In this document: piece by piece, positions 14,598-33,730 of the stretch | Layout of the letters: each line of letters starts with the position of its first letter | How positions within the stretch are numbered: the first letter of the stretch is position 1 | Assembly (NCBI GenBank): GCA_029882995.1 | Contig: JAOUJV010000005.1 | Location: forward strand, 1-62,694 | Reading direction: 5' to 3' | Source of the DNA: Gammaproteobacteria bacterium | GTDB taxonomy: Bacteria; Pseudomonadota; Gammaproteobacteria; DAOVJZ01 | DNA: 62,694 bases | Position numbers and translations under genes: made by a program | Notes under the pieces: model-generated | The model's database searches: none | Seen by the model: the letters and a program-made list of their open reading frames with translations, nothing else | Told to the model about the DNA's origin: nothing

Positions 14598-14784
14598 AAA
14601 TCATACATAAATTAAGGGTATGCTAACTGGGAGTCATAAATAGGTCAGCTTTACTAGTAATCCACTCATAATAATAAGCAATACAATCAGTTAAAAAGCA
14701 GTAAATATAATTAATAGGGATGTTGCTTTTAGCACATGTGGGACTAAAAAAGCTGTTGGTTTGTGTTAAATGATGGGGGTCAAT

Positions 14785-15477
14785 ATGAAATCATATACAC
14801 GCTACGGGTATGTTACATACCTTTTCATTACTGCATTATCTTTATTTTTCGCCGTACTTGGTCAGGCAACTGCCGGTACAATCAAGGATACAGCGCATGA
14901 CTTTTCCACCAAGGGCTACACCGGTGGGCAAATCTGTGTTGTTTGTCATACACCACATAACTCAGATACCACAATAAGTGAAGCACCTCTGTGGAATCAT
15001 GAAACAACTGCAACAACTTTCACCATGTATAACAGCCCATCATTCGATGCAACAGGTGATGGTGCTCCTACAGGTACTTCCAAACTGTGTTTGTCCTGTC
15101 ATGACGGTACTGTCGCTATCGATAGCTTTGGCGGTACAACCGGCACTGACTTAATGATTGGTAACAAGGCGGTAGGTCGTGATGGCTCACTGGCTGATGA
15201 CCATCCAATCTCTATTACTTACGATGCCGCATTGTCCACAACTGATCAGGGATTGCATGATCCTTCTGCAACCAACGTGGAAATCGGTACCGGTGGTGAT
15301 AAAACACGTTCAGGTACAATTCAGACAGTTATGCTATCAAACAACAAGGTACAGTGTTCTTCATGCCATGATGTACACAACAACTTCGTTGCTAATGATG
15401 GAACTGGCGGTGGTGCACCATTCCTGAAGGTAACCAAATCCGGTAGTAGCCTGTGTCTGACTTGCCACAACAAGTAG
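14785..15477 (+). CDS. Exported tetraheme c-type cytochrome
   Basis: CVVCHTPHN, CLSCHDGT, CSSCHDVHN, CLTCHNK; signal peptide MKSYTRYGYVTYLFITALSLFFAVLGQATAG; listed ORF starts at 14770. Confidence 0.9.
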   Translation: MKSYTRYGYVTYLFITALSLFFAVLGQATAGTIKDTAHDFSTKGYTGGQICVVCHTPHNSDTTISEAPLWNHETTATTFTMYNSPSFDATGDGAPTGTSKLCLSCHDGTVAIDSFGGTTGTDLMIGNKAVGRDGSLADDHPISITYDAALSTTDQGLHDPSATNVEIGTGGDKTRSGTIQTVMLSNNKVQCSSCHDVHNNFVANDGTGGGAPFLKVTKSGSSLCLTCHNK

Positions 15478-15598
15478 CAGTCTGACCATACGTAAACCGA
15501 CGGCCTGATCCCATAACCCTCCTTCTCCGTTGTTACGGCGGAGGGTTATGGTTATAATCAGGATACCTGTTAAAACATCAATAATAAGGGTCTATGTT

Positions 15599-16711
15599 AT
15601 GCAGACCAGTAGATGTTGTTTCCGTCAATTGTGGCATGTACTTGGTTTACTGAGTGTGCTGGTGCTTAGTGGATGCGCCGGTGTCTCTACAACCAAAACC
15701 GAAGAGTCGGTCTTTTACCCGGCCCTGCCTACCCCTCCCCGCATCCAGTATCTGGCTCGTTTCTCATCTTCAAACGATCTGGCTGCCGATAATAGTAGTT
15801 TCAAGCAATTTGTTGTTGGCAAGGAATCTTCCAGCAGTCATCTGGTACAAAAACCCTATGGCGTTGCCGTTCATGAAGGAAAGATATACGTCGTCGATAC
15901 CCGTGGTTCAGGCTATGGCATCTTTGATTTAAAGAACAACCGCACCGATTTTATTCATGGTTTTGGCGGCGGCAAGATGGACAAGCCTATCAATATCACC
16001 ATTGATACCAATGGCACCAAATATATTACTGATACTGAACGCAACAAGGTGCTGGTCTTTGATAAAAACGATCAGTTTGTTCGCGCCTACGGCAGAAAGG
16101 ATCAGTTCAAGCCTATTGATGTGGCTGTTATTAATAACAGGCTATACATTTCGGATCTGTATCATCATCGTATCGTCGTGCTGGATAAAGATACGGGCAA
16201 GACCCTGTTTACATTCGGCACACCTGGCTCAAAAGAAGGTGAGCTGTTTCAGCCTACCAATCTGACCCTGTCTGCAGACAAGCATCTATATATCAGTGAT
16301 ACCGGCAATTTCCGTATTCAGAAATACACTCTGGACGGCAAGTTTGTGCGTACCTATGGCAGTATCGGTGCAACTGTAGGGAAGTTTGCCCGTCCCAAGG
16401 GTATCTCGGTTGATAAGACAGGGCGCCTTTTCATTATTGATGCTGCGTTTGAAAACATCCAGATTATGGACAAGACCGGCACACCATTAATGTTTTTTGC
16501 CGGGCCAGGCGACAAGACCGGCAATATCAATTTACCGACAGACATTGTGATTGACTATGACAATGTTAAATATTTCCAGAAATATGCCGATCCGAAATTC
16601 AAGCTTGAGTACATCGTACTTGTAGCCAGCCAGTTCGGCATTAACAAGGTAACTGTTTTCGGGTTTGGGAAAATGCAGGGCATGGATTATTCAGCCCCCA
16701 AACCGGAATAA
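15599..16711 (+). CDS. NHL-repeat (six-bladed beta-propeller) lipoprotein
   Basis: ORF listed from 15530; ATG at 15599 gives MQTSRCC...LSVLVLSGCAG lipobox; repeated FxxPxxIxxDxxxxxYIxDxxNxRI units. Confidence 0.85.
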   Translation: MQTSRCCFRQLWHVLGLLSVLVLSGCAGVSTTKTEESVFYPALPTPPRIQYLARFSSSNDLAADNSSFKQFVVGKESSSSHLVQKPYGVAVHEGKIYVVDTRGSGYGIFDLKNNRTDFIHGFGGGKMDKPINITIDTNGTKYITDTERNKVLVFDKNDQFVRAYGRKDQFKPIDVAVINNRLYISDLYHHRIVVLDKDTGKTLFTFGTPGSKEGELFQPTNLTLSADKHLYISDTGNFRIQKYTLDGKFVRTYGSIGATVGKFARPKGISVDKTGRLFIIDAAFENIQIMDKTGTPLMFFAGPGDKTGNINLPTDIVIDYDNVKYFQKYADPKFKLEYIVLVASQFGINKVTVFGFGKMQGMDYSAPKPE

Positions 16712-16890
16712 TCTGAGAAAACTGAATATACGAAAACACCTGAACACCATGATACATAATATCTATAAACTCATTGGGATATAAAGGAGCCAGGTGTAAA
16801 TGAATACTTTTATATACAGGAAGTCTGTTTGCCAATGGAGTGTAAATGTAGTCGCATGGCACACGGTAAATTGCTTGGATATATGTTGTA

Positions 16891-18909
16891 ATGTTAAAAA
16901 ACAGGAGTCTTATCAGTGGTGATCACCACTCTATTTTGCCCGCTATCCGGCTTGGGCTTCTGTTATCACTGTCTGTTCAAAATATCCACGCACAGGGACT
17001 GGCTGACATTACTTCATTCCAGCTAATGGATGTCGAAGGCTTTGCTTCTATGCGCTACGCCTTTGATGATAAAACCACAACCTCTTCCGGCTCTACTACC
17101 TACGAATCCAGACCCACACTGGAAGAAGAGTTTTACATATCAACCCGCAGTTATGTCTATCATCCAAATTTCCTGAATATGGATGTCGGTGCAGGGGTAA
17201 TATTTTCACAACAGGATTTTGAATCCAATGGCGGCAGCTCAAGCAGTGATGAAAACCTGTTTAATTTTTCTGCCAACCTGCGTTTTCTTGAATCCAAGCC
17301 CTACCCGTTTACGCTTTATTACAATCTTTCCCATCCGGCAACCAGCATTGGAATGTCCGGTCGTTTCCTGCAGGAAAATGAATTGTATGGTGTAAATATT
17401 TCCCTGCGGGAACCGCTGGTCCCTCTTATGCTTAATCTTGATGTATCTCATGAAACCAACAAGGGAGAAGGCTTTGACACTCTGGTCGACAACTCGACCG
17501 ATCAGGCAAGATTTTATGCCTACAAGTCATTCAGTACAGGCAACAACGTCCAGTTCTCACATCAATGGAAAGAACGATATGCACGCAGCGGCAATCCCGG
17601 TGTGCCGATACAGGCTACATTAATAACGACCAACACAAGTAATCTTAACGTTAATAATACCTTCGGGGAAAAAAACCAGCTCAAACTAAATCAACTGCTC
17701 TCCTACATGGAGAATGAAACCAGCACCGATACCACCACTTTCCGTTATTCACCCGGTTTGCATTGGACGCACTCGGAAAAAACACGATCCTTTTATCGCT
17801 ATAACCTGTTTGATAACAACTATGGTTCTATTGAAACCGAAAACCAGTCCCTGAACATGGGGCTCAGCCACAAGTTCACTGAAAAACTACTCGGCAATGC
17901 CGACCTGCTGACTGAAGACAACAAAACAACCAACTTTGAAAAACAACGCTACGCCGCCAATGGTTCACTTAGCTATAAACATGCTATCCCCTGGGGCTCC
18001 ATGACTATCGGCGGCAACTGGCAATATGATTACAATGATCAGGAAGGTGACAGTCTTGTGCCTGTGGCCGATGAGTCGGTTACATTGAATGGAACAACAG
18101 CAGTCGACCTTGCCCAGGAGAATATTGATATAAACAGCATCAGGGTTACTAATCTTGCCAAGGACACAACATATGATGAAGGTGCTCTTGCAGATTATGT
18201 TATTACAGTTGCTGGCAACACCACAAAGATAGCACGTAGTGGAGTCGGAAGTGCTATTAATGATGGTGACACTGTGCTGGTCAGCTACAACTACGAATCC
18301 GGCGGCACCATTGCCTACAGCAGTTTTACCCAGGGTTACCAGCTTAATCTGGATTTATTTAACTATTACGGTGTTTATGTGCGCTACCGCAATGTTAACC
18401 AGAACCTGGAAAGCGGTGAGCCAACAACATCCCTGAATTCATCAGAAAATATTGCATTTGGTGCCAAGGCCAATGTGCCATTGGTCAATGACTGGCAGGT
18501 AGGCGGTGAAGTTAATCATGAGATCCATAATGCCGATATCTCTTCCTTTACCCGCACCAACTATGACGCCTATGCACAAACCAGTCTGCCACGCCGAAGT
18601 ATTCTGCGTTTCTCCGCACGTCATAACGTGATCGACAATGAATCTTCCGCAGAAGACACCGACCTGTATGGTTTGCGCATCAGGTTGACTTCACAACCCT
18701 GGTTCCGTACTACACTAACAGCAGAAGTGGATTATGAAGAGGATCAAGGTGGTTCTGTTTTACGTGAGCGACTCGTACAACAGGTTGGTATGACATGGCA
18801 ATACCGCCAGTTGAACCTGACCCTGACCGGAAGACATCATAATGAAACGCAGGGAACAACCGAGCGTGAACAGGCACAAATCTATCTCGTATTAAGGCGG
18901 ACTTTCTGA
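16891..18909 (+). CDS. Outer-membrane beta-barrel protein, candidate porin partner of the cytochromes
   Basis: 672 aa, signal-like N-terminus, alternating amphipathic strands, C-terminal ...AQIYLVLRRTF ending in Phe. Confidence 0.75.
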   Translation: MLKNRSLISGDHHSILPAIRLGLLLSLSVQNIHAQGLADITSFQLMDVEGFASMRYAFDDKTTTSSGSTTYESRPTLEEEFYISTRSYVYHPNFLNMDVGAGVIFSQQDFESNGGSSSSDENLFNFSANLRFLESKPYPFTLYYNLSHPATSIGMSGRFLQENELYGVNISLREPLVPLMLNLDVSHETNKGEGFDTLVDNSTDQARFYAYKSFSTGNNVQFSHQWKERYARSGNPGVPIQATLITTNTSNLNVNNTFGEKNQLKLNQLLSYMENETSTDTTTFRYSPGLHWTHSEKTRSFYRYNLFDNNYGSIETENQSLNMGLSHKFTEKLLGNADLLTEDNKTTNFEKQRYAANGSLSYKHAIPWGSMTIGGNWQYDYNDQEGDSLVPVADESVTLNGTTAVDLAQENIDINSIRVTNLAKDTTYDEGALADYVITVAGNTTKIARSGVGSAINDGDTVLVSYNYESGGTIAYSSFTQGYQLNLDLFNYYGVYVRYRNVNQNLESGEPTTSLNSSENIAFGAKANVPLVNDWQVGGEVNHEIHNADISSFTRTNYDAYAQTSLPRRSILRFSARHNVIDNESSAEDTDLYGLRIRLTSQPWFRTTLTAEVDYEEDQGGSVLRERLVQQVGMTWQYRQLNLTLTGRHHNETQGTTEREQAQIYLVLRRTF

Positions 18910-19955
18910 TGACACGTCTATTATCAACACTGTTCGCTTTTACTGTTATTGGGGCCATATCCATCCTTGCCGCTTCCTGTGCCACAACTACTACCCCTTC
19001 TGCACAAGAAGCCATTAAAAGGGTATGGCCCCAACCACCGGAAACTGCACGTATTGAATATCTGGGTAGTTTTTCCAGCCCGGAAGATCTGGGTATCACC
19101 AAATCCTTCTGGCAACGCCTTGGAGAGTTTTTTACCGGCGTGGAACAGAACAATCTGATCCGCCCCACTGCCATTATTACAACTCGTGATGGCAAGTATG
19201 TTTTTGTTACCGATCCGGGAGCCAAAGGTGTGCATCAGTTTGATCTCGATCATGGCAAATACCGGATCATACGCCGAAAAAATAATATGCCATTGCTCTC
19301 CCCGATAGGTATAACCACAGGACCAGACAATCACATTTATATAACCGATTCTGCACTCAACCAGGTTTATGCTATCAACCCCGATTCCAAATATGCTGTA
19401 CCCGTCACGCTTGATGGAGAACTCAAACAACCCACCGGCATTACCTATGACGAAAAAACAAACCGGCTTTATATTGTGAATACGGCTGCACATCATATAA
19501 AGGTCTTTTCCGGCAATGGAAAATTCATTAACCAATTTGGTAAACACGGAAACGGGGCCGGACAATTCAACTATCCAACCTTTATCTGGCAGGACAACCA
19601 AAGGCGTCTGTTGGTAACGGATTCATTGAACTTTCGTATCCAGTTAATGAACGCAGATGGAAAAATGCTGGGCAAGTTTGGCAAGGTCGGGGATGCCACC
19701 GGTAACCTGTCCCGACCCAAGGGGGTTGCCACTGACAACCAGGGACATATTTATATTGTTGATGCGCTGTTCCATGCCTTCCAGATATTTGATTCCAATG
19801 GTCAACTATTGCTGGATTTGGGCAGTCAAGGCCAAAAACCGGGAGAATTCTGGCTCCCGACCGGGATTTTTATCACACAGGATAATACAATCTATATTGC
19901 CGACTCACACAATAAACGGGTCCAGCAATTTCGTTATATTGGAGGTAGACCATGA
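18909..19955 (+). CDS. NHL-repeat beta-propeller lipoprotein
   Basis: ISILAASCATTT lipobox; VWPQPPETARIEYLGSFSSPEDLG header parallels PPRIQYLARFSSSNDL of 15599-16711; TGATG overlap with the barrel gene. Confidence 0.85.
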   Translation: MTRLLSTLFAFTVIGAISILAASCATTTTPSAQEAIKRVWPQPPETARIEYLGSFSSPEDLGITKSFWQRLGEFFTGVEQNNLIRPTAIITTRDGKYVFVTDPGAKGVHQFDLDHGKYRIIRRKNNMPLLSPIGITTGPDNHIYITDSALNQVYAINPDSKYAVPVTLDGELKQPTGITYDEKTNRLYIVNTAAHHIKVFSGNGKFINQFGKHGNGAGQFNYPTFIWQDNQRRLLVTDSLNFRIQLMNADGKMLGKFGKVGDATGNLSRPKGVATDNQGHIYIVDALFHAFQIFDSNGQLLLDLGSQGQKPGEFWLPTGIFITQDNTIYIADSHNKRVQQFRYIGGRP

Positions 19956-21715
19956 GACGCCCTGCTTTCGTCTGCATGATTTTGTTTTGGCTGTTACTGC
20001 CTGTTACTACCATACAGGCTGCCAGTATTGTTAACAGCAAACACAATTTGTCGGTTACTGGTTCCGGCAGTGTCAAGGCTGATCAGGAATCACAAATCTG
20101 TATCTTCTGTCATACACCGCATAATGCTTCACCGATTGCGCCACTCTGGAACCGTCCATCATCAGGTGCCAGTTATACGCCCTATTCCAGCAGTACCGCG
20201 ATTGCTTCACCCGGGCAACCAACCGGTGCCTCCATCCTGTGCCTGAGTTGTCATGACGGTACCATTGCGCTGGGTGATATCTTAAGCAAAGACACGCCCA
20301 TCACGATGAGTGGTGGTATTACTACCATGCCTACTGGCTCAGGCAGACTGGGTACGGATCTGAGGGATGACCACCCGATTTCATTTGAATACACAACTGG
20401 ATTGGCCAGTTCCAATGGTGAACTGGTAAACCCTTCAACACTCATGGGGCAGGTAAGACTGGATGCAACCGGGCAAATGCAATGCACCTCCTGCCATAAT
20501 GCACATGATAACAGTTATGGAAAATTTCTGGTCATGCCTAATATTGCCTCTGCACTTTGCACAACCTGTCATCAAAAAACCAACTGGTCGCAAACACCTC
20601 ACAGCTATTCCTCTGCAACATGGAACGGGCAATTACCTGATCCATGGCCAACAACAGATTTAACTACTGTCGCGGACAATGCCTGTGAAAACTGTCATCA
20701 ACCTCACAGCGGCGGCAGTACCCAGCGATTGTTGAAACACATGAATGAAGAAGACAACTGCGCTTCCTGTCACAACGGCAACGTGGCCGCAAAAAATATC
20801 ATGACATTGTTCAATCAGGCCTCGGGACACCCGATCACCAACACTTCCGGTGTGCATGATCCGGCAGAAGGCGCTGTAGTTAACAGCCGCCATGTTGAAT
20901 GTGTCGATTGTCATAACCCGCACCAGACACGTGCAGGTACTGATCCGGTAACGGGTGTCTTGTCCGGTGTGCGTGGAATTGATATTAATGGCATTGAAAC
21001 AAATCCCATTACACAGGATTATCAATTGTGCTTCCGCTGTCATGCCGACAGCACCGGGAAACCCGCTGCACTGACACCACGTCAAATTACCCAGACCAAT
21101 GTCCGGCTGGAATTCACTACTACGAATCCCTCTTTTCATCCTGTAGCCGGTCCGGGTCAAAACCCTAATGTTCCGAGTTTAATTGCACCTCTTACGATTA
21201 ACAGCACCATCAGTTGCAAGGATTGCCATAACAGCAACAATTCACCAACTGCCGGGGGTAACGGGCCGGAAGGACCACATGGTTCATCATGGAAACCTCT
21301 TTTAATTCGTCAATATGAAACTCTGGACTATACAACCGAAAGTGCCTCTAACTATGCTCTCTGTTATGGTTGTCATGACCGTAACAGCATTCTGGGTAAC
21401 CAAAGTTTTCCACTTCACAATTGGCATATTGTTACAGTAAAAGCTACTTGCAATACTTGTCACGACCCGCACGGAATCAGCGATACTCAAGGTAATGCTA
21501 CCAATAACACTCATCTGATCAATTTTGATACATCCATTGTTTCCACTGCTGGTAACGGAAAACTGGAATTTGTTGACTATGGCACATACGCTGGTTGCTG
21601 TAGTTTAAGCTGCCATAACCGCAACCATGGCGCATTTTCATATGGCGGTGGTGGTGGCGGTGGTGGCGGCGGTGGTGGCGGCGGCGGTGGCGGCGGTGGT
21701 GGTGGCGGCTGCTGA
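19952..21715 (+). CDS. Multiheme c-type cytochrome (11 CXXCH + 1 CX3CH) with C-terminal poly-Gly-Cys tail
   Basis: CIFCHTPHN...CLSCHDGT...CNTCHDPHG, CCSLSCHNRNHG, then 22 Gly and terminal Cys. Confidence 0.92.
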   Translation: MRRPAFVCMILFWLLLPVTTIQAASIVNSKHNLSVTGSGSVKADQESQICIFCHTPHNASPIAPLWNRPSSGASYTPYSSSTAIASPGQPTGASILCLSCHDGTIALGDILSKDTPITMSGGITTMPTGSGRLGTDLRDDHPISFEYTTGLASSNGELVNPSTLMGQVRLDATGQMQCTSCHNAHDNSYGKFLVMPNIASALCTTCHQKTNWSQTPHSYSSATWNGQLPDPWPTTDLTTVADNACENCHQPHSGGSTQRLLKHMNEEDNCASCHNGNVAAKNIMTLFNQASGHPITNTSGVHDPAEGAVVNSRHVECVDCHNPHQTRAGTDPVTGVLSGVRGIDINGIETNPITQDYQLCFRCHADSTGKPAALTPRQITQTNVRLEFTTTNPSFHPVAGPGQNPNVPSLIAPLTINSTISCKDCHNSNNSPTAGGNGPEGPHGSSWKPLLIRQYETLDYTTESASNYALCYGCHDRNSILGNQSFPLHNWHIVTVKATCNTCHDPHGISDTQGNATNNTHLINFDTSIVSTAGNGKLEFVDYGTYAGCCSLSCHNRNHGAFSYGGGGGGGGGGGGGGGGGGGGGGC

Positions 21716-21802: not shown

Positions 21803-22816
21803 ATGGTACTAACAACAAAAGCCGCTTTATCTGGAGCCGCAAGGTTCCTGATAGTTTTTTTTGCATTATGCGCAATTGCAAATGCAACGGGGAATGATGG
21901 AGGGAAAAAGGTGATGGTTTCAGCAATCACTGATAAAGAAATATTTGCCCACCCGGAAAAAGTAAACCGATGGTTATCGGAGCGACAACTTTCAGTCCAG
22001 CAAATCCCCAATCCTCACTGGCACAACGATGCATGTCAGGCATGTCATACAAAAAAGAATTCTGCCAGCCTCAGAAATAATAATACCGAGCAACTTTGCC
22101 TCAATTGTCATCAAGCTGTATCACGACACGGTTTTAATCATTCATCAGACAAGCCAACCAGCGATGCCATGCTAAAACGCATGCCTGCCAACTTCCGTAA
22201 TGCCCTGAAGACAGGTAACAAGGCAACCTGTACTACATGTCATGAGCTGGCCATACAATGTTTACCAAAACAGCGTAAGGAAAAACGTCGTAACCCGATG
22301 TTCCTGCGAGGAGGTCCGTATCGTTATCGTTCTGATCCCTGCTATCAATGCCATGATGCCAAGGCCTATGCACGCATCAACCCACATGATCAGATTGACG
22401 AGGCCGGCAATGTCAGGAAATCAACCTGCCGCCTGTGCCACAGTGATAAAAACGATCTTGATAAAGCCCGCAATATATCCGAGGTCGGCTTTAATGTTGA
22501 AAAAGATTTGAAAAACATGTGCACCGGCTGTCATCCGTGGATCCCTCACCCGGGAGGGACATTCATGTTTACCGGCGGTGAACGACCGGAACACCTTGCC
22601 AAACCATCAAAATGGGTACTTCAACGTATGCAGGAAAGTGAAAAGAAACTAGATATCATTCTTCCGCTGGATCCGACCAATGGTGAAGTATTTTGCGGCA
22701 CATGCCATAACCCGCATGAACGCAACCTGTTGTCCTCTCCTGTTGCAAACAAGGGGGCCGACAGCAAAAAGCGCTTGCGACTACAGGAAATCTGTACTGC
22801 TTGCCATGAGAAATAA
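21803..22816 (+). CDS. Octaheme c-type cytochrome
   Basis: Eight CXXCH: CQACH, CLNCH, CTTCH, CYQCH, CRLCH, CTGCH, CGTCH, CTACH; N-terminal hydrophobic segment. Confidence 0.9.
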   Translation: MVLTTKAALSGAARFLIVFFALCAIANATGNDGGKKVMVSAITDKEIFAHPEKVNRWLSERQLSVQQIPNPHWHNDACQACHTKKNSASLRNNNTEQLCLNCHQAVSRHGFNHSSDKPTSDAMLKRMPANFRNALKTGNKATCTTCHELAIQCLPKQRKEKRRNPMFLRGGPYRYRSDPCYQCHDAKAYARINPHDQIDEAGNVRKSTCRLCHSDKNDLDKARNISEVGFNVEKDLKNMCTGCHPWIPHPGGTFMFTGGERPEHLAKPSKWVLQRMQESEKKLDIILPLDPTNGEVFCGTCHNPHERNLLSSPVANKGADSKKRLRLQEICTACHEK

Positions 22817-22822
22817 ACATTA

Positions 22823-23932
22823 ATGAAACAATATCTACTCCGATCAGCAAGCATGTTCCTGTTGTTGGTGATATGGATGACCAATGTACAGGCCTTTCAG
22901 GATGATGAAGGCTGTTTAATGTGTCACAAATACCCGATGATGGGTCGTATTACCGGTGAGGGTGTTTTCCGTTCCTATTATATTGTCCCTGGAATTTTTG
23001 AAAAAACAGTACATCGCAATGTCCCTTGTCGAGATTGCCATAACTATATAAAGGAACTGCCGCATAAACCGGTCAAGCAAGGGGTAACATGTAATACCGA
23101 ATGTCATTCCATCACTAACCCGGCAACAGGAAAACCATTCAGTCACAAACCCATTTACGATACCTATCGTAAAAGTGTACATGGCCGTGACAAGCTAACC
23201 AAAACCAGTGATTCCGACAAACCCTATTGCATCACCTGCCATACTAATCCGCTGTATAACCCGAAAGAGGACAAACCACCATCAAAAATTATTGACCGCT
23301 GTGTGGTTTGTCATGAGAAGCGACAGTTTGCCGAACGCTGGTACAATCATACCAGCCGTCGCATCAAGGAAGTACGCCGTTCATCCGAAGATATTGTGGC
23401 CATCTGTTCCAACTGTCATGGTAAAAAAGAATTTATTGAAAGACGAAAAGAACTTGCCAAAAAAGAAGGCCGTGAACTTGGGCCCAAGTTTGCATTTGCC
23501 ATCGATTCCTACAAGGACAGTTTTCACGGGAAATTGACCCGCATCGGGTTTACCGAAACTGCAAACTGTCTTAACTGTCATGCCAACGAGGTGAATTACT
23601 ATAAAAGTGTGCATGAAATTCGCCCGTCGCGTGACCCGCTGTCACCAACGCATGATAATAATCGCGTCAAGACCTGCCAGAAATGCCACACCTATGCAGA
23701 CGCCAACTATGCACAACTGGATCCTCATCCAACCAGTGACAAGGAAGATAACCCGTTCCGTTACTTTGCAGAAATGATATACAACTGGGTTGGTTATATC
23801 GTGATAGCAGGACTGGTGGGTATATCCATGTTTGAAACCTTCGGTCGCTGGCGCGATGGTGTTGGTTTGTTTATTCGCCAGGGTTCTTCATGGTGGCGTA
23901 AAAGTAAACGTGGTCGCAAACGGGTTGTTTAA
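22823..23932 (+). CDS. Multiheme cytochrome anchored by a C-terminal TM helix (7 CXXCH + CX3CH)
   Basis: CLMCH, CRDCH, CNTECH, CITCH, CVVCH, CSNCH, CLNCH, CQKCH; C-terminal YNWVGYIVIAGLVGISMFETFG then basic tail. Confidence 0.9.
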   Translation: MKQYLLRSASMFLLLVIWMTNVQAFQDDEGCLMCHKYPMMGRITGEGVFRSYYIVPGIFEKTVHRNVPCRDCHNYIKELPHKPVKQGVTCNTECHSITNPATGKPFSHKPIYDTYRKSVHGRDKLTKTSDSDKPYCITCHTNPLYNPKEDKPPSKIIDRCVVCHEKRQFAERWYNHTSRRIKEVRRSSEDIVAICSNCHGKKEFIERRKELAKKEGRELGPKFAFAIDSYKDSFHGKLTRIGFTETANCLNCHANEVNYYKSVHEIRPSRDPLSPTHDNNRVKTCQKCHTYADANYAQLDPHPTSDKEDNPFRYFAEMIYNWVGYIVIAGLVGISMFETFGRWRDGVGLFIRQGSSWWRKSKRGRKRVV

Positions 23933-23965
23933 TCCAAAGGTGATATTAACAAAAGGTCGAATGAA

Positions 23966-24919
23966 ATGAATCTATCTGACAATGCCAAAAAAGTACTGGA
24001 ACGCAGTATGCAACAGAACAGGGTTAGCGATGAGGAACGTAAAGATATCCTTGACGTTGTTGCTATCATGCCGGATGACCGCGTACTCCTTTATAAGAAT
24101 GTAGTATCAAATCCTATCGGTGACCTGCCGCGTTACTCAATTCATATTCGTATTCAACATATGCTGACCTTTGTTACTTTCCTGACACTTGCCTTCACCG
24201 GCTTGCCAATCCATTTTATTGATACTGTCTGGTCAGAGCCGCTGAACTCACTCCTTGGTGGTGTCAATGTAACACGGATCATTCACCGTACCCTGGCCTC
24301 AGTCATGATCTTCTCAATGATCTATCACATTTTCACAATTACTTTCGGTCCTCTGCTACAGATATCCCGTGGCCGTTTTGATATTTACCGCACAATTATT
24401 CCAACATTCAAGGATATTACTGATTTCAAGGATGACATGCTCTACTTTGCCGGCAAGCGTGATCAACGTCCTGAAATGGACAAGTTTATGTATAAACAAA
24501 AAATTCATTACTTTGCAGCGGCCTTTGGTAATTTGGTTATGGTTATCTCCGGTTCATCCTTCCTGTTTCCGGAATTTTGGGCGAGTATCTTGCCTACTTC
24601 AATTGCCGCACACTTTCAGGAACTGATGCGCTTATCACACCCACATGAAGCACTGCTGGCACTATTGGTGATTGCTTTTTGGCATTGGTACAACGTACAT
24701 CTGGCACCGGGGCGTTTCCCCATGCAGTGGACATTCCTTACCGGCATGATCACCCGTGAACATCAAATTGAAGAACACTTCCTGGAATATTTACGCAATC
24801 TGGTTGAAATCCCTGAAGAACGACGTTTCCTGCAAGACTTGCTGGAGAGTCGCGAACTGGTACCGGAAACTGAAACCCCTGTAAACTCTAAACCCGTTAG
24901 TGAGCAATCAACGCCATGA
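23966..24919 (+). CDS. Di-heme cytochrome b/b6-type integral membrane subunit
   Basis: Four or more TM helices with His pairs: IRIQHMLTFVTFLTLAFTGLPIHF, RIIHRTLASVMIFSMIYHIF, HPHEALLALLVIAFWHWYNVHLAPG. Confidence 0.88.
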   Translation: MNLSDNAKKVLERSMQQNRVSDEERKDILDVVAIMPDDRVLLYKNVVSNPIGDLPRYSIHIRIQHMLTFVTFLTLAFTGLPIHFIDTVWSEPLNSLLGGVNVTRIIHRTLASVMIFSMIYHIFTITFGPLLQISRGRFDIYRTIIPTFKDITDFKDDMLYFAGKRDQRPEMDKFMYKQKIHYFAAAFGNLVMVISGSSFLFPEFWASILPTSIAAHFQELMRLSHPHEALLALLVIAFWHWYNVHLAPGRFPMQWTFLTGMITREHQIEEHFLEYLRNLVEIPEERRFLQDLLESRELVPETETPVNSKPVSEQSTP

Positions 24920-25035
24920 TCAATCCAATGACACGTCTGCAAAAACTGATTGCATACACATCCCTCATTATTGTATTGGCATGGACAGTTTTTGGTATTT
25001 ACACAATCTGGCTCTACATCGGGCATGAATTGTAA
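24916..25035 (+). CDS. 39-aa single-TM protein, not in the ORF track
   Basis: ATGA overlap with the cytochrome b stop; MINPMTRLQKLIAYTSLIIVLAWTVFGIYTIWLYIGHEL*. Confidence 0.7.
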   Translation: MINPMTRLQKLIAYTSLIIVLAWTVFGIYTIWLYIGHEL

Positions 25036-25057
25036 GCAGGAACATCGGAGATAAACT

Positions 25058-26086
25058 GTGCATCAAATGGAATCTGCAAGTATTGTAATCATTGTTATAG
25101 CAGTCCTGCTATTTTTCCTGCTGGGGATTGCTATATTAATGCTGGTTGATCACAAGGCACGATTACCTGGTCATTTCACACAAGACCAGTTTTCTATCAA
25201 GGGAATGCGCCGCAATCATCCTGGAATTTCCTTCATCACCACCATTATCCTGTTCTCAATTATTTTTACCCTGCTCATGGAACTGGGCGTAACCTTTTAC
25301 GGAAAATTTTCTCCACTCCCGGAACAGGAATCTCCAGGATTGCTAACACAAATTGGTCAGGAACGAAGCGCAGAAAAACTTCGCCATTTTCACAACACGA
25401 CAGAAAAATTATTACCTACCCAGGGCAATAAAACTGTCTGTTTCCAGTGCCATGGTGATTATCCACACTCCAAGGAACCCATGATTCGCACCATTCTTAA
25501 TATGCACACCCAGTTTGTTGGCTGTATGACCTGTCATAATGATGCACGCAAAGTTAATGAACAAAGCCTGACTTTCAACTGGCTTAATTTCTCAGGCATT
25601 AAAACATCCGGCCCACCCTTCGGAACCAGTATTGATCCAGAAACGGGCAACCTGATTGAAACAGATGACTATTATTCCAAGATTGTTGTGTATAGTAATA
25701 ATAAATTGCTTGAGATTACACCGGACACACCTGATACCATAGAGTTTATCAAGATAAACCATCAACTAACTGATGAGGACAGGCAGGCAATCAAGGAACG
25801 TTTTCACAGACTGGTCAGTCCCAAAGGACGTTTTTGCAGTCGTTGTCATACCCAGGAAAACGGCTATATTCCGTTTGCAGAACTGGGTTTTTCAGAACGC
25901 CGAAGAAACGACCTGACCAACCTGAATATTATTGGTCTGGTTGAAAAGTACAAGGATTTCTATATCCCCAACCTGCTTAATACAGATAAATCAATTCCAT
26001 CACTGGAAGATCTGACCAGAGGGCCTGAGAAAAGCAAAGCCAGCAAAGATCATGATATCAAAAGTCCCTGGTGGGAAAAGAAATAA
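25058..26086 (+). CDS. Membrane-anchored triheme cytochrome with two N-terminal TM helices
   Basis: IVIIVIAVLLFFLLGIAILML and FITTIILFSIIFTLLMELGV; CFQCH, CMTCH, CSRCH. Confidence 0.85.
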   Translation: MHQMESASIVIIVIAVLLFFLLGIAILMLVDHKARLPGHFTQDQFSIKGMRRNHPGISFITTIILFSIIFTLLMELGVTFYGKFSPLPEQESPGLLTQIGQERSAEKLRHFHNTTEKLLPTQGNKTVCFQCHGDYPHSKEPMIRTILNMHTQFVGCMTCHNDARKVNEQSLTFNWLNFSGIKTSGPPFGTSIDPETGNLIETDDYYSKIVVYSNNKLLEITPDTPDTIEFIKINHQLTDEDRQAIKERFHRLVSPKGRFCSRCHTQENGYIPFAELGFSERRRNDLTNLNIIGLVEKYKDFYIPNLLNTDKSIPSLEDLTRGPEKSKASKDHDIKSPWWEKK

Positions 26087-26113
26087 CAACACATTAACTG
26101 GATATAAAATAGT

Positions 26114-27052
26114 GTGAGGATTCCCGGCTCAAAACATTTTCTTTTGTTTTATGCAGTGATTGGACTGTTATGGAGTGCTACTGCACCTGCCACAGACATC
26201 CCGACCCACCCGCTTTCCCACATCCGCAATATAACCGCTACTGCAAACGGAAAATTATCACTGCCTACCGACGTTGCACTTGATAAACAAGGCAGGCTTT
26301 ATGTGGTTGACAGTGGCAATCATCGCATTGCTGTCTTTTCCAATAACGGTCAACATTTATTTAATGTCGGCAAACACGGTTCAGCTCCCGGTGAATTTAA
26401 TGGCCCGACAGGTATTGATGTTGGACCGGATAACAGGTTTTATGTTGCAGATAAAAACAATCATCGCATACAGGTGTTCAGTCAATCCGGTGAACTGGTG
26501 CGAGTTATTCCCATAACGCGTGGCAAACACGGCATTACCCCGGTCGATGTTGCTGTATCACCTGATGGTGAGACACTCTATATCACGGGCAACAACAATC
26601 ACCACCTGATGAGTTACACAATCAAAGGCAAACCTGTTCACGAATGGGGCGGCGAAGGTGTCAACAAGGGCGAGTTTCGTTATCCGGCCACCATTGCTGT
26701 CAGCCCGCAAGGGAATATTCATGTCGTTGATGTACTGAATGCCCGGGTACAAAAATTTACCGGGGACGGAAAATTTCTTGTTCAAATCAGCAAGTGGGGC
26801 GTACTGCCCGGTCAACTGTTTCGTCCCAAGGGGATTGCACTCGATTCGCAACAGCATGTCTATGTTGGCGACAGTTACATGGGAGTAATCCAGGTGTTCG
26901 ATAAGGAAAGCCGTTTCATACATGTGCTGGGAAATAAAGGAGAACCTCAACGGTTTGATACCCCGCTCGGCATGGCCATCAGCAGGAATGGTCACTTGTA
27001 TGTGGCGGAAATGATCGAAAATAAAATCTCTGTTTACAAGCTGGGACGATGA
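26114..27052 (+). CDS. NHL-repeat beta-propeller, exported (GTG start)
   Basis: LSLPTDVALDKQGRLYVVDSGNHRIAVFSNNG... repeats; signal-like N-terminus. Confidence 0.85.
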   Translation: MRIPGSKHFLLFYAVIGLLWSATAPATDIPTHPLSHIRNITATANGKLSLPTDVALDKQGRLYVVDSGNHRIAVFSNNGQHLFNVGKHGSAPGEFNGPTGIDVGPDNRFYVADKNNHRIQVFSQSGELVRVIPITRGKHGITPVDVAVSPDGETLYITGNNNHHLMSYTIKGKPVHEWGGEGVNKGEFRYPATIAVSPQGNIHVVDVLNARVQKFTGDGKFLVQISKWGVLPGQLFRPKGIALDSQQHVYVGDSYMGVIQVFDKESRFIHVLGNKGEPQRFDTPLGMAISRNGHLYVAEMIENKISVYKLGR

Positions 27053-30000
27053 TCATGAAACTGTTTTCACGAATGATTATTACCGCCCTGTTATTCATGA
27101 CTGCTGCCCTGTCAGTTTCAGAATATGTATGGGCAGCACGTGATGTAGGTGAACAACGTGAGTGTGCAACCTGCCACATCATGTGGCTCAATGAATTCAA
27201 ACGCACTGATATTATCCCGCTAATAAAATATGATCCGACCCCGCAGGAAACAACCGGTCGTCAGGATATTGTTAGTACAAAAAGAATGTGCATTTCCTGT
27301 CATGACGGGTTTGTACTGGATTCCAGAGAACTCTGGAAGGAAGGCCACAAACAACACCCGGTCGGAGTAAAACCGTCTGACAAGATCACAATCCCGATTG
27401 TTGAAGGCAAGAACCTTTTTCCACTTAACAGTGATGGCAAGGTATATTGCGGCACCTGTCACACTGCTCACGGCATCAAATGGGGCGAAAAGGAATCGAC
27501 CGTATTTATGCGCGTCAGTAGTCGTGACGGAAATTTTTGCCAGAATTGCCATAAGCAAAAAATGACCGGGCCAGCCACGGGCAATCATCCTGTCAATAAA
27601 AAGGTGAAGGGCAAACTTGCTAACATAGGTGCAAAACCGGTTCGGCTAACTGATGAGAAGGAAGTCAGTTGCCAGAGTTGTCATACTGCACACAAGGCCG
27701 CCAACAAAAAACTGCTGGTTAACGATAACAACAATTCCGAGATCTGCGGCAGTTGTCATGCTGACCGCTATACCTTCTCCATGAAAGAGGCAGCACGCTC
27801 ACATACACATCCGGTCAACCTTGTTCCTGAACATGCAAAAATCCCCCAGGACCTGATTGATAAAGGTGCAAAACTGGGTAATGACGGAAAAATTATCTGT
27901 CAGACCTGCCATACCCCGCACGGCTCCAAAACCCAAAAAAGCATTCTTGTTGACAGCAATCAGGACTCCTCCCTGTGCCAGCAATGCCACATAAAACAAC
28001 GCAAGGTGGCTGGCGGCAAGCACGACATGCGACTGGTTGATGCTAATAACAGCAATGTTAAAAAACAGGTCGTGGACAAAGCCGGTGTGTGTAGTGCCTG
28101 TCATACCGCACACGATGGCAAGGCTCCAAAAATGTGGGCACGTACACCGGGAAACAGTAAAGACCCAATGGCTTCAACCTGCCTGAGTTGCCACCAGACA
28201 GACGGGCTGGCCAGGAAACACCAGGTTGGGAATTTCAGTCATCCGGTCGGTGTGGATATTGCCAAGACCGGGAACAAGGTCAGTCTGCCGACCTTCTCAA
28301 ATACAGGCGTAAAATCCATCAACGCCGCCAGCGGCAATGTTACTTGTGCTTCATGTCACGATGTACATCAATGGGATCCAAAGCACCCGCAGAAAACGGC
28401 CAAACCCGGGCAAGCCGGTGATGCCAGCAACAAGTTCCTGCGCAAGGTAAACAAACCTGACAGTGCATTATGTAATACCTGTCACAAGGAAAAGTGGAGT
28501 ATCAATGGCACTGAACATGACTTGTCAGAAATAGCACCCAATGCCGTTAATGTGCTCAAGCAAACACCCGAACAAGGTGGTACCTGCAGTAGTTGTCACC
28601 TGGTGCATAATGGTAAAGGTCCGCGCATGTGGGCACGTAATATTCCGGCAGGCACCACAGGCCCGTCTGCCCCATGCCTGAGTTGTCACAACACAGATGG
28701 TCTTGCAAGCGATAAGGCCATTGGCAAACATAATCATCCAGTTAACTCCCCGTTGGAAAAACTCGGTATCAAGGCCACCTTCAAAAGCTGGCAAACTGCG
28801 ATCCCTGATATCCTGAAACTGAAATCACCTGTACCGCTGCCCCTGTATGATGAGGATGGGCATTATGCCAATGCTGGCGGCAATATCAGTTGCGGCAGTT
28901 GCCATGATCCACATCGCTGGGATCCGGAAAATGCCAGCAACAAGGACACCAATGTTGAAGGTGATGCCAGCAACAGCTTTCTGCGCATGGCAGACAAGGG
29001 AGAAAGTGCTCTTTGCATGAACTGCCATCGCAACAAGGCCAGTGTAGTCCTGTCCCCACATGGCGAGAAAAAACTGGCGCAGTCACCTAGCAATGAGCAT
29101 TCTGCAACCGGACCATGCAGCGCCTGTCATCAACCCCACAACAGCAAGGAACCCTATCTTTGGGCACGCAAGCCCGGCGAAGGGAAAACAGCGATCACAA
29201 CTTTGTGTACCAGCTGTCACCGGGATGATGGGCATGCAAAAAATAAACAAACGGGAAAAAATACACACCCGACCGGCATAGCATTAACCAAAGACATGCC
29301 CGCATCAAAATTACCGCTTTACACTGCAAAGGGAGAAAAAACAGAACACGATGGGAAAATAGATTGTGCCACCTGTCATGATCCCCATCAGTGGAACCCG
29401 GACAATTTCAAGAGTATCGCGGGCAAAAAAGCCAATGTTGAAGGCACACCCGCCAACAGTTTCCTGCGTATTCATGCAAGCGGGGACAGCGCCTTGTGTA
29501 TCACTTGTCACAAGACCCAGGCATCAGTACAAAAAACTGATCACGATTTAAACATAACAGCAAAAAATGCTGTTAACCAACATAAACAAACACCCGCTGT
29601 ATCCGGCACCTGCGGCCAATGCCATACACCGCACAATGCCACCTCACCCGTGCGTTTGTTTGCACAGGCTCCGGGCAAGGGCAATAACATTAATGAACAA
29701 CTCTGCCTGGGCTGCCATGCCGAAGGCAAAAGTGCAAAAGCCAAAATACCACCGGAAACAAAACACCCGGATAAAGTACGTGCATGGTCAGGTCCCGTGC
29801 GCGCACAACTGCGGCCTGATGCAAAAACTCATTTACCCATCTTTAATAAGCAAGGCAAACCCGACACCACGGGTATCATCAGTTGCCCAACCTGTCACAA
29901 TCCTCACAAGTGGTCGATCACACAGGAAAAACAGCCCGGCAAGAATACCGAGGGCGACACCTCGTCCAGCTTTCTGCGCCTGTCCAACACTGAATTATTC

Positions 30001-30093
30001 CTGTGCGCCGACTGCCACGGCCTGGATTCCCTGTATCGCTACAAGTACTTCCACTCCAGTAAATCTCATGAAAAACACAAGCTGACACGCTAA
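27049..30093 (+). CDS. 24-CXXCH multiheme c-type cytochrome with internal tetraheme repeats
   Basis: 24 CXXCH counted; recurrent CHDPHxWxP...EGDASNSFLR...ALCxxCHK...GTCxxCHxxHN...WAR..CLSCH blocks; ATGATCATG start overlaps the previous gene. Confidence 0.93.
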   Translation: MIMKLFSRMIITALLFMTAALSVSEYVWAARDVGEQRECATCHIMWLNEFKRTDIIPLIKYDPTPQETTGRQDIVSTKRMCISCHDGFVLDSRELWKEGHKQHPVGVKPSDKITIPIVEGKNLFPLNSDGKVYCGTCHTAHGIKWGEKESTVFMRVSSRDGNFCQNCHKQKMTGPATGNHPVNKKVKGKLANIGAKPVRLTDEKEVSCQSCHTAHKAANKKLLVNDNNNSEICGSCHADRYTFSMKEAARSHTHPVNLVPEHAKIPQDLIDKGAKLGNDGKIICQTCHTPHGSKTQKSILVDSNQDSSLCQQCHIKQRKVAGGKHDMRLVDANNSNVKKQVVDKAGVCSACHTAHDGKAPKMWARTPGNSKDPMASTCLSCHQTDGLARKHQVGNFSHPVGVDIAKTGNKVSLPTFSNTGVKSINAASGNVTCASCHDVHQWDPKHPQKTAKPGQAGDASNKFLRKVNKPDSALCNTCHKEKWSINGTEHDLSEIAPNAVNVLKQTPEQGGTCSSCHLVHNGKGPRMWARNIPAGTTGPSAPCLSCHNTDGLASDKAIGKHNHPVNSPLEKLGIKATFKSWQTAIPDILKLKSPVPLPLYDEDGHYANAGGNISCGSCHDPHRWDPENASNKDTNVEGDASNSFLRMADKGESALCMNCHRNKASVVLSPHGEKKLAQSPSNEHSATGPCSACHQPHNSKEPYLWARKPGEGKTAITTLCTSCHRDDGHAKNKQTGKNTHPTGIALTKDMPASKLPLYTAKGEKTEHDGKIDCATCHDPHQWNPDNFKSIAGKKANVEGTPANSFLRIHASGDSALCITCHKTQASVQKTDHDLNITAKNAVNQHKQTPAVSGTCGQCHTPHNATSPVRLFAQAPGKGNNINEQLCLGCHAEGKSAKAKIPPETKHPDKVRAWSGPVRAQLRPDAKTHLPIFNKQGKPDTTGIISCPTCHNPHKWSITQEKQPGKNTEGDTSSSFLRLSNTELFLCADCHGLDSLYRYKYFHSSKSHEKHKLTR

Positions 30094-30121: not shown

Positions 30122-30152
30122 TTAGGTTACATACGTAACCTATTGTTTTTTA
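30122..30152 (+). terminator. AT-rich hairpin terminator after the 24-heme gene
   Basis: TAGGTTAC-ATAC-GTAACCTA followed by TTGTTTTTT. Confidence 0.6.
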
Positions 30153-30244: not shown

Positions 30245-30332
30245 GTTTCGTGACAAAGGCAAACCAGTCGAAAGGCTGGGACGCAAAGTTACCTACCTGT
30301 GGCCAATGGCTATGGCAGAGGGACTTACCGGA
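30245..30332 (+). ncRNA. GEMM-I (c-di-GMP-I) riboswitch
   Basis: gacaaaGGCAAACCAGTCGAAAGGCTGGGACGCAAAGttacctacctgtggccaatggctatggcagagggacttaccgg: P2 with GAAA tetraloop, GGGACGCAAAG core, P3-like arm. Confidence 0.88.
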
Positions 30333-30337
30333 GAAGC

Positions 30338-30835
30338 ATGATGAAAACCTGGGAGTTATTACAACGGCTTGCCGCCTGTATGGTCGGTGTCCTGTTTACC
30401 ATCAATACCGCAAATGCTGAAAGTTTTGCTGATTCATTCAGAGACTTCGTGCTGGGATCAGAAGCTCAGGCTCGCACCATAACACCGGCTGATTTTGGCA
30501 CCAACAGTCAAAGTGGCAAATGCATGCAATGCCACGACAGCATTCACCTCAAACGTGCCGGAACCCCCATGCAATTTCAAGGCAATGCCAGCACCAATCA
30601 CCCGGTAGGCATGTCATACGCCCAGCATGCCAACAAGAGTCCTGCAACCTACGTGCGCCCTGCTTCACTGAATCATCGTATTCAACTGGAAAATGGTCAG
30701 GTTGGTTGCGTTAGTTGTCATCAAGCAAAAACAACTGAATCGGTTGCTGTAAACACTCCAGACTGCACCTCAACCAAAGAACTGGCAACAGGTCATGATC
30801 AAACCAGTCTATGTATGTCGTGTCACGTCATGTGA
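30338..30835 (+). CDS. Riboswitch-controlled triheme c-type cytochrome
   Basis: ATG at 30338 (MMKTWELL); signal peptide; CMQCH, CVSCH, CMSCHVM. Confidence 0.88.
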   Translation: MMKTWELLQRLAACMVGVLFTINTANAESFADSFRDFVLGSEAQARTITPADFGTNSQSGKCMQCHDSIHLKRAGTPMQFQGNASTNHPVGMSYAQHANKSPATYVRPASLNHRIQLENGQVGCVSCHQAKTTESVAVNTPDCTSTKELATGHDQTSLCMSCHVM

Positions 30836-30980: not shown

Positions 30981-31604
30981 CTATAACGAACTGATGTATT
31001 CTGATAACGCTTCAATCTCATCATCAGTTAGTTTTAAAAGCACTATTTGCATCAGGTTGAATATATCTACCGGACGCTTTCCTGTTTGCATATCCTTCAT
31101 TGTTTTATACATATATTCCTTATTCTGCCCTTTTATCAACGGTGCTCCATCAATATAGGCTGTGGCCGGATCGGCATCTAACCCGTGACAAAAATGACAA
31201 TTGCGACTCAGGTATACATCTTTCCCCTTCTTGCCAAGTTCGGTTTCTTTTTTTGTTCCTGTCATGGCCGGGCGGCTTGCGAAGTATTCAGAAATGGCTC
31301 TGATGTCTTTTGTTTTCACGTTTTCAAGCACATCAGCCATCAGGGTGCTGATCCTGCGGCCTGATTTATAATCCAGAGTCTGGTTAACGAGGTAATCTAC
31401 ATCCTGCCCGATCAGCTTGGGGATCAAGGGATCCGGATTATTATTATCTGCCGTATGGCACTCAAAACACAGGCGTGCCATTTTGTCACCCTCTGACAAT
31501 TTTTCTGCGCCAGTAACATTAAGGGAAATAACAAAAAAAGTGATACATAGTCCTGTATAAGTTGCAGATTTCATTATTGAGCTTTGAAAAACAACATGCC
31601 GCAA
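30981..31604 (-). CDS. Diheme cytochrome c (c553/c4-like)
   Basis: CFECH and CHFCH; two class I-like cytochrome c domains; signal peptide. Confidence 0.85.
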   Translation of the reverse strand: MRHVVFQSSIMKSATYTGLCITFFVISLNVTGAEKLSEGDKMARLCFECHTADNNNPDPLIPKLIGQDVDYLVNQTLDYKSGRRISTLMADVLENVKTKDIRAISEYFASRPAMTGTKKETELGKKGKDVYLSRNCHFCHGLDADPATAYIDGAPLIKGQNKEYMYKTMKDMQTGKRPVDIFNLMQIVLLKLTDDEIEALSEYISSL

Positions 31605-31605
31605 C

Positions 31606-32478
31606 TTAACCAGGAATATAACTACCCGTACTTTTAATAGCCCGGATAATTTTCATTGTGGATATCTCAAGTTCCTTGATTGCTTTTTTATATTTACTAT
31701 GAGAAGCAAGTTCTTCTGCCTTGTTCCTGTGTTCCGTGGCAGCAGATTTGTATACTGCAACAATTTTATTCAGAGAGTCATCATCAGGAAATTCTGACAA
31801 GAACATACTTAACAACATAAAATGGGTATCATTCCTGTCGAGCTCATAATTGTACTCATCCTCGGCACTATCAAAACTAAGAGTATTAACCAAAGTATCG
31901 CCTGTTCTCATTGTAACAATGGTCGCTTCTACAAGCTCCAATGCCCTGTGAACAATAGCAATGGCCTTTTTATAGTGTTTTTTGAAATATTCCTGATCAG
32001 CCTGTTTGGTGAGTTCGGTGACCTTGTTTATTATAATCTGGGTTTCTTCAGTCTTGTCTTTGGTTGCACTTACCCGCCTTAATGCGTCTGTAAGCGCATT
32101 AACACTTCTTCTCTTTGTCTCATAATCATGTCTATCCTGTTCATTGCCCGTTCCTTTCAGGTTGGCATACATAATCGCTTCAAAAATGGCCTTCTTTGAG
32201 TTCTTTAGATGAAAATCGGCCTGTTTCAGATCACCCTTGCGGTATTCCCCAACCGCATTATCAAATGAGACCTGAGCATATTTAAAATACTGTTTAGCCA
32301 CATCACTGCCACTGTTTCTGATTTGCCTGCTAACCGATGACTCACTTAATAAACTTGCAATTGAGTTCACTCTTCTCTCGAAGTCTTTATTAGATTGGGC
32401 AAACAACGCACTATTGGCTGATAATATGGCTGCTATAAAAACCAGAATTTTAAATTTCTTGTTCATAATCTTCTCCAT
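31606..32478 (-). CDS. Exported alpha-helical hypothetical protein
   Basis: Signal peptide and helical, Lys/Glu-rich sequence; no CXXCH; co-directional with flanking cytochromes. Confidence 0.6.
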   Translation of the reverse strand: MEKIMNKKFKILVFIAAILSANSALFAQSNKDFERRVNSIASLLSESSVSRQIRNSGSDVAKQYFKYAQVSFDNAVGEYRKGDLKQADFHLKNSKKAIFEAIMYANLKGTGNEQDRHDYETKRRSVNALTDALRRVSATKDKTEETQIIINKVTELTKQADQEYFKKHYKKAIAIVHRALELVEATIVTMRTGDTLVNTLSFDSAEDEYNYELDRNDTHFMLLSMFLSEFPDDDSLNKIVAVYKSAATEHRNKAEELASHSKYKKAIKELEISTMKIIRAIKSTGSYIPG

Positions 32479-32527
32479 ATTGGGTCACAACAACTTCCCT
32501 GGTTTGTTTTAATTTCTATATTCATAT

Positions 32528-33223
32528 CTACTTTTCGCCACTATGACATGAAGAACATTTTGATAAAGGAAATGCAACCTTCCCGTGGCAGACACCGCAT
32601 TTTTTCCCCATCAGGTTTTCCGCCATTGTTATGTTGTTTGAACCACTAAGCGGAGTAAAAATAGCCGGGTGACAATTAGCGCAATCAAGTATGGTGGTAT
32701 GTTGTTTATGAGGAAAAACAACATTTGGCATTGAACCCTTCACCTCCATAACAATATTCAGATCCATAACAATTGGCATTACCTCCTTGCCATCATAACT
32801 GTTAAGTGGCTTAATCTTGCCTGAATCCATTGCCTTGACCCAATCCACCTCATTTCCAGCCTTTGCCTCCGGAAAACCAAAAAGCGCTTCCTTGGGGTTT
32901 TGTAACATACGGGCTGCCCTGTTTGTGGGATCATGAATACCGTCTTCTATGGGGGCAAGATGCACTTCACCACCCTTTTTCAATAATCTGTTAAACCTGT
33001 TTACATCTGGTTTTTCAACACTTTTCTTTTTTACAATGGTATCTTTTTGGGTGTTGCTCATATCTTTTACTTCTGCCACCACTGTTGGTGAGTCAGACTT
33101 TTGAACTATTGGCTTTGAGGGGCTTAGATTAACATCCGCCTTGCTATCTACCGATGTGCAATTAACTACCAGTGCTGAAAATAGAATTGTAAATATATAT
33201 GTTAATGCACTTCGATTATTCAT
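32528..33223 (-). CDS. c7-type triheme cytochrome lipoprotein
   Basis: FPHKQHTTILDCANCH...KKCGVCHGKVAFPLSKCSSCHSGEK; ALVVNCTS lipobox-like N-terminus. Confidence 0.85.
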   Translation of the reverse strand: MNNRSALTYIFTILFSALVVNCTSVDSKADVNLSPSKPIVQKSDSPTVVAEVKDMSNTQKDTIVKKKSVEKPDVNRFNRLLKKGGEVHLAPIEDGIHDPTNRAARMLQNPKEALFGFPEAKAGNEVDWVKAMDSGKIKPLNSYDGKEVMPIVMDLNIVMEVKGSMPNVVFPHKQHTTILDCANCHPAIFTPLSGSNNITMAENLMGKKCGVCHGKVAFPLSKCSSCHSGEK

Positions 33224-33241
33224 AGCATATTCACTTTTAGC

Positions 33242-33730
33242 TTACTTTTTTTGTTTCTCGGGTACAGGCGTTGTTGTTATTTTTGGTTTATGACCCCGTA
33301 CATCCATAATCCTCTGCTGGGTACTATTGTGTACCTTGGTTTTAGTGCCCATCTCTGCCGAATGGCATAAATCACAATTTTCGATATCCCACGCAATTTT
33401 TCCATCATGACAGGCACCACAGTAACGACCATTGATGATGTCAGACATTTTCATCTTGTTCTCGCCCGCCTTGAACTTGAATTCAAGATCATCATGACAA
33501 ACCTTGCAGGTATAACGTATTCGATGGAACCAGTGGGGGAAAATGACAGGCCTGACACCGGCCTCATCAGCAAAATTGTTGAGTACAACATCTCCGTACT
33601 CTGTCTTGCCTTCGATAGGTAGAACACATACGGCTAGAAATACAACTAATCTGAATATTGATTTAACAAACATAACTGACCTTTCAAAAAACCAGCCCTC
33701 CCTGACTAATTTTATAAACAGTAAAAACAT
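33242..33730 (-). CDS. c7-type triheme cytochrome
   Basis: FPHWFHRIRYTCKVCH...GRYCGACHDGKIAWDIENCDLCH. Confidence 0.85.
   Translation of the reverse strand: MFLLFIKLVREGWFFERSVMFVKSIFRLVVFLAVCVLPIEGKTEYGDVVLNNFADEAGVRPVIFPHWFHRIRYTCKVCHDDLEFKFKAGENKMKMSDIINGRYCGACHDGKIAWDIENCDLCHSAEMGTKTKVHNSTQQRIMDVRGHKPKITTTPVPEKQKK

Follow-up and report, generated by a model that had tools for sequence, protein, structure and literature searches.

A c-di-GMP-I riboswitch beside a triheme cytochrome gene of a Uet-type locus, probably a translational OFF switch

The 62,694-nucleotide (nt) gammaproteobacterial contig analyzed here, referred to as the window, carries a c-di-GMP-I riboswitch (GEMM-I, RF01051), a class that senses cyclic di-guanosine monophosphate (c-di-GMP), directly upstream of a triheme c-type cytochrome gene in a locus of the undecaheme electron transfer (Uet) type. 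From its architecture we infer that this RNA binds its ligand and controls translation of the cytochrome, most likely as an OFF switch; this reading is probable rather than certain. The pairing of riboswitch and gene recurs in ten species of two distant groups, and it is therefore a real, conserved control point.

A cmscan search against all 4227 Rfam families places the aptamer at positions 30248-30332 of the forward strand, with 66.3 bits (E 8.7e-11) over the full model (1-87) and a gathering score of 35 for RF01051. The only other gathering-level match in the window is a tRNA. A first-pass annotation of this DNA had proposed a GEMM-I riboswitch at this place, to stand or fall by an Infernal search, and the search returned it above threshold. 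The core that the annotation had drawn, GGCAAACC-GAAA-GGGACGCAAAG with a P3 arm, is present, and the GAAA tetraloop, GACGCAAAG and the CC pair are nearly invariant in an alignment of the ten orthologous leaders. The match and this alignment together locate the bases expected to contact the ligand: G20 (numbered as in the Vc2 riboswitch) at 30258, and the equivalents of A47 and C92 at 30285 and 30328.

The ATG of the triheme gene (30338) lies on the same strand, 5 nt past the end of the model and so within the roughly 10 nt that the annotation had allowed; a second in-frame ATG follows at 30341. The ribosome binding site (RBS) anticipated in the 3' flank is a Shine-Dalgarno (SD) GGAG at 30330-30333, which has a counterpart in the equivalent place in loci L041, L042, L046, L047, L146 and L147. 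It sits within the 3' strand of helix P1, so that RBS and riboswitch overlap. Reading of the window leader reveals no terminator between the aptamer and the ATG.

The orthologous triheme gene has a GEMM-I element immediately ahead of it in ten species: four Gammaproteobacteria, namely the window and G126 (L041), G046 (L047) and G369 (L042), and, in a Nitrospirae-like class that includes L043 and L046, each of the six genomes that bear the triheme gene. The orthologs come from other gammaproteobacterial families and from metagenome-assembled genomes labelled Nitrospirae or simply bacterium. Their upstream element is RF01051, except in one case where it is the clan member RF03167. By our own estimate, even a single genome would show such a placement by chance with a probability of about 1e-4 or less, assuming one aptamer per ~3 Mb that falls on the correct strand and no more than 250 nt ahead of the gene in question. 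Because the linkage is kept in ten species, the case that the riboswitch controls this cytochrome is much stronger than a single match could make it. The triheme gene stands without a riboswitch in G122, L044, L045 and the relatives from Bacteroidota or Chlorobiota, and a search for degenerate GEMM-I elements in the loci that lack one, carried to E 0.5, found none. The only match in a plasmid collection is a 46-bp partial one in a Methylomonas plasmid.

P1 joins a 5' strand at 30245-30252 (positions 7-14, with nucleotide 12 unpaired) to a 3' strand at 30329-30337 (positions 93-101) that includes the RBS. The pairs are 30252-30329, 30251-30330, 30249-30333, 30248-30334, 30247-30335, 30246-30336 and 30245-30337. 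Over the ten aligned leaders, 68 of the 70 cells (97.1%) hold standard pairs, compared with 50-82% when the partner strand is slid by one to three columns as a control. Two of the pairs show compensatory changes on both sides, from G-C to A-U and from C-G to U-A.

These features suggest a simple mechanism. c-di-GMP would bind the three-way junction at the G20, A47 and C92 equivalents and stabilize P1, thereby hiding the GGAG in its 3' strand and keeping ribosomes off. Without ligand, P1 would open and the triheme cytochrome would be made. Control should be translational, as the annotation had also supposed, because the start codon comes right after the aptamer without a terminator in between, and repression is the simplest outcome of binding because the RBS lies inside P1. 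The Vc2 switch is reported to be a translational OFF switch that acts through P1 stability (PMC9262584).

Several observations weigh against repression through P1. Part of the support for the helix comes from one-sided changes, and a control that shuffles the 3' letters is only moderate (32 of 500 shuffles for double changes). Forcing P1 to form costs 3.5 kcal/mol without ligand, and G95 and A96 stay unpaired. When the free window leader is folded without constraints, the GG of the RBS pairs with coding bases (probability unpaired ~0.1), while G97-A99 are open at 0.7-0.9. Energy modelling of the RNA with and without ligand gave no decision on polarity.

Because folding energies are not decisive, a translational ON switch has to be kept as a rival, if an improbable one. 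In such a switch the 3' strand of P1 would, in the free RNA, pair with the first codons (~30350-30358) and so conceal the RBS until ligand binding broke this pairing. The minimum-energy fold just described has the corresponding pairs, and the members of the class in Geobacter that respond to cyclic GMP-AMP (cGAMP) are ON switches (PMC6456294, PMC9262584). However, the Geobacter switches use terminators, and none precedes the window gene. Moreover, P1 formation occupies G94 and G97-C101, so that the bound state hides the RBS too, and L042 does not conserve the pairing with coding bases. OFF polarity is thus the more likely of the two.

The placement of start codons varies among the relatives. 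An ATG or GTG lies at +6 to +9 past the aptamer in eight of the ten leaders; for comparison, the start lies at +60 to +310 in eleven other GEMM-I leaders where one could be assigned. The cytochrome itself starts at +6 to +9 in the window, L041 and L042, the last of which also has an in-frame ATG at +3. In the Nitrospirae-like class, five of six members have an ATG at +7 or +8. The early ATG of L046, L145, L146 and L147 opens a leader open reading frame (ORF) of 42-73 amino acids that extends to the cytochrome start or beyond it. The ORF from +8 in L043 has only 10 codons, but a second frame, open from +16, continues into the cytochrome; in L144 the frame that does so opens with a GTG at +13. 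Only L047 lacks an early start. Its leader is about 110 nt long and contains TATCTCCGG, which is able to base-pair with the 3' strand of P1.

A terminator-like hairpin lies within the leader ORF in L046, L146 and L147, and the leader ORFs of these three loci and of L145 may couple translation to attenuation. An additional antiterminator role for the P1 3' strand in L046, L146 and L147, suggested by duplexes of 9-12 kcal/mol, was rejected: in both states modelled, the terminator hairpin is the favored fold. We tentatively propose, while regarding it as somewhat less probable than not, that these leaders represent a distinct c-di-GMP-I expression platform in which one P1 strand is the RBS and the start codon adjoins the aptamer. 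Gammaproteobacteria would start the cytochrome directly from it, whereas the Nitrospirae-like clade would start a leader ORF that spans a terminator (in three species) and overlaps the cytochrome start. The same SD-masking event would then yield translational repression in one group and translation-coupled attenuation in the other, placing Uet-type electron transfer under c-di-GMP. A compact layout with the RBS in P1 also occurs in a GEMM-I element of G015 (L009:1501-1589), before a small ORF and not a cytochrome.

c-di-GMP is the likely ligand of the window riboswitch because G20 is present and every GGDEF domain that is readable in the genome has the canonical Asp. Among the ten species, nine have G at position 20 and L042 has A. 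These data fit the earlier suggestion, made from this base in the window, that c-di-GMP is favored, with the refinement that G20 is reported to be a selectivity factor and not a hard filter (PMC9262584). The genome is very c-di-GMP-rich, with 39 GGDEF hits in 2.42 Mb. Five of these are degenerate or split; the remaining 34 are readable, and 34 of 34 have the Asp. Hypr enzymes, which synthesize cGAMP, have Ser in its place (PMC6456294), and none of the readable domains does. The cGAMP-selective GEMM-Ib type is defined by A20 and a Hypr GGDEF enzyme; the window has G at 30258, and its genome has no such enzyme among the 34.

It is accordingly very improbable that the natural ligand is 3',3'-cGAMP, as it is for the Geobacter cytochrome riboswitches. 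The shared kind of target, the latitude of G20 and the A20 of one ortholog speak for cGAMP, but the window has G20, as do eight of its nine orthologs, and the readable GGDEF domains are canonical both here and in the genome with the A20 ortholog. That ortholog (L042:4820-4917, in G369) has the base typical of cGAMP riboswitches, and a search of its genome for a matching Hypr enzyme found none among the readable GGDEF domains. Its A20 possibly reflects a natural change of ligand or decay. That the window aptamer has become a relic or leaves the gene unaffected is likewise very improbable: G122, L044 and L045 have an equivalent locus without it, so it is not essential, but its score is high, its ligand-contact bases are conserved, and it is retained before the orthologous gene in two distant groups despite varying leader length.

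The regulated gene (30338-30835, forward strand) encodes 165 amino acids with exactly three CxxCH motifs and a signal-like N-terminal segment. The protein matches Cytochrome_C7 weakly, under the Pfam cut-off. An NCBIfam search found no relative, and a profile search of solved structures found no meaningful one (best E 0.003). Structure prediction from 12 sequences is poor, with a mean predicted local distance difference test (pLDDT) score of 55 and a predicted template modelling (pTM) score of 0.30. A single non-heme Cys, C143, is invariant in 13 of 13 homologs, and H88 is invariant too; judged by this conservation, both could be distal heme ligands.

The surrounding genes form a Uet-type locus, an assignment made from composition and gene order. 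Uet systems in Ca. Tenderia electrophaga and Gallionella comprise an undecaheme and a tetraheme cytochrome, a beta-barrel, NHL proteins and trihemes (PMC10734462). In the window, heme counts and conserved order define a core at 14770-21715 on the forward strand, consisting of tetraheme (14770), NHL, beta-barrel-like, NHL and undecaheme (19952) genes. It is followed on the same strand by octaheme, heptaheme, cytochrome b561-type, membrane-anchored triheme and NHL genes (21803-27052). A 1014-amino-acid cytochrome with 24 CxxCH motifs (27049-30093, forward strand), syntenic in G126, G122, G369 and G046, lies immediately upstream of the riboswitch. On the reverse strand at 30981-33730, genes for a diheme cytochrome, a TPR-like protein and two further trihemes match, by heme counts, the triheme-TPR group of Tenderia, where the trihemes are co-transcribed with the TPR gene (PMC5371394).

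A terminator-like hairpin follows the 24-heme gene (30123-30142, forward strand), although it comes from a consensus scan only, with one found and 0.8 expected by chance. Because of this hairpin, the riboswitch and triheme gene are probably transcribed as a unit of their own; a sigma-70 scan found no promoter for that unit. By tblastn of the window proteins, gene order is as in the window in G126, G369 and, rearranged, G046, and the undecaheme core lies beside the riboswitch-triheme unit in G370, G373, G378 and G383. The order of the core is conserved in the Nitrospirae-like class as well. The cytochrome 'island' of the first-pass annotation thus keeps its link to the riboswitch, now with gene linkage in ten species, and becomes more specifically a Uet-type electron-transfer locus. 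ORF reading shows a gene for a peptidylprolyl isomerase (PPIase)-like protein adjoining the undecaheme gene in L043 and L046, UetB being a peptidylprolyl isomerase. In G046, a second, diverged heptaheme/b561/membrane triheme module (L175:855-3653) stands beside the undecaheme core.

The genome, assembled in 175 contigs, has only one further GEMM-I element (L001, G000:C60:10410-10497, reverse strand; 77.6 bits). As read from the sequence, a GGDEF gene on the same strand stands directly upstream of it, and a gene for an S8-type protease follows. Matches to mir-3119 (RF03717) on both strands of L044:51-206 are under the gathering score and likely reflect a chance palindrome.

The window element shares with Vc2 of Vibrio cholerae its Rfam family, the G20, A47 and C92 contacts and P1 as the switching helix (PMC9262584). 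However, the target gene of Vc2 is different, and its masked RBS is distant from the aptamer, to go by the title of Inuzuka 2018 as cited in PMC9262584, whereas that of the window lies inside P1. Bc1 of Bacillus thuringiensis is of the same class and traps its RBS upon ligand binding (PMC11218506), but its platform spans ~220 bp with two terminators, while the window aptamer abuts the start codon. The Geobacter GEMM-Ib riboswitches before pgcA and omcAHG share the fold family and cytochrome or electron-transfer targets. In contrast to the window element, with its G20, no Hypr enzyme among readable domains and no terminator before the gene, they select cGAMP, which the Hypr enzyme GacA makes, and are reported to exert ON control (PMC6456294). 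Cytochrome targets of this riboswitch class are thus known from Geobacter, with cGAMP (PMC6456294). The window locus has the undecaheme, tetraheme, beta-barrel, NHL, triheme and TPR components of the Tenderia and Gallionella Uet systems but adds a b561/24-heme module and a riboswitch-linked triheme; the available portions of the reports on those systems mention no riboswitch (PMC10734462, PMC5371394). A literature search returned neither a c-di-GMP-I riboswitch in a Uet-type locus nor one whose RBS lies in P1, which is weak evidence since subscription papers lay mostly outside the search.

The riboswitch class is therefore already known, while its target is newly seen and its platform is compact, possibly a variant of the class. 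Uet-type conduits have been proposed as the route by which bacteria of cathodes and iron oxidisers take up electrons, and to our knowledge almost nothing is known of their regulation. The element is ~100 nt with a very short platform and is thus directly testable in a reporter. A conserved c-di-GMP sensor on a Uet cytochrome would connect attachment to surfaces with electron traffic in bacteria other than Geobacter, through c-di-GMP and not cGAMP.
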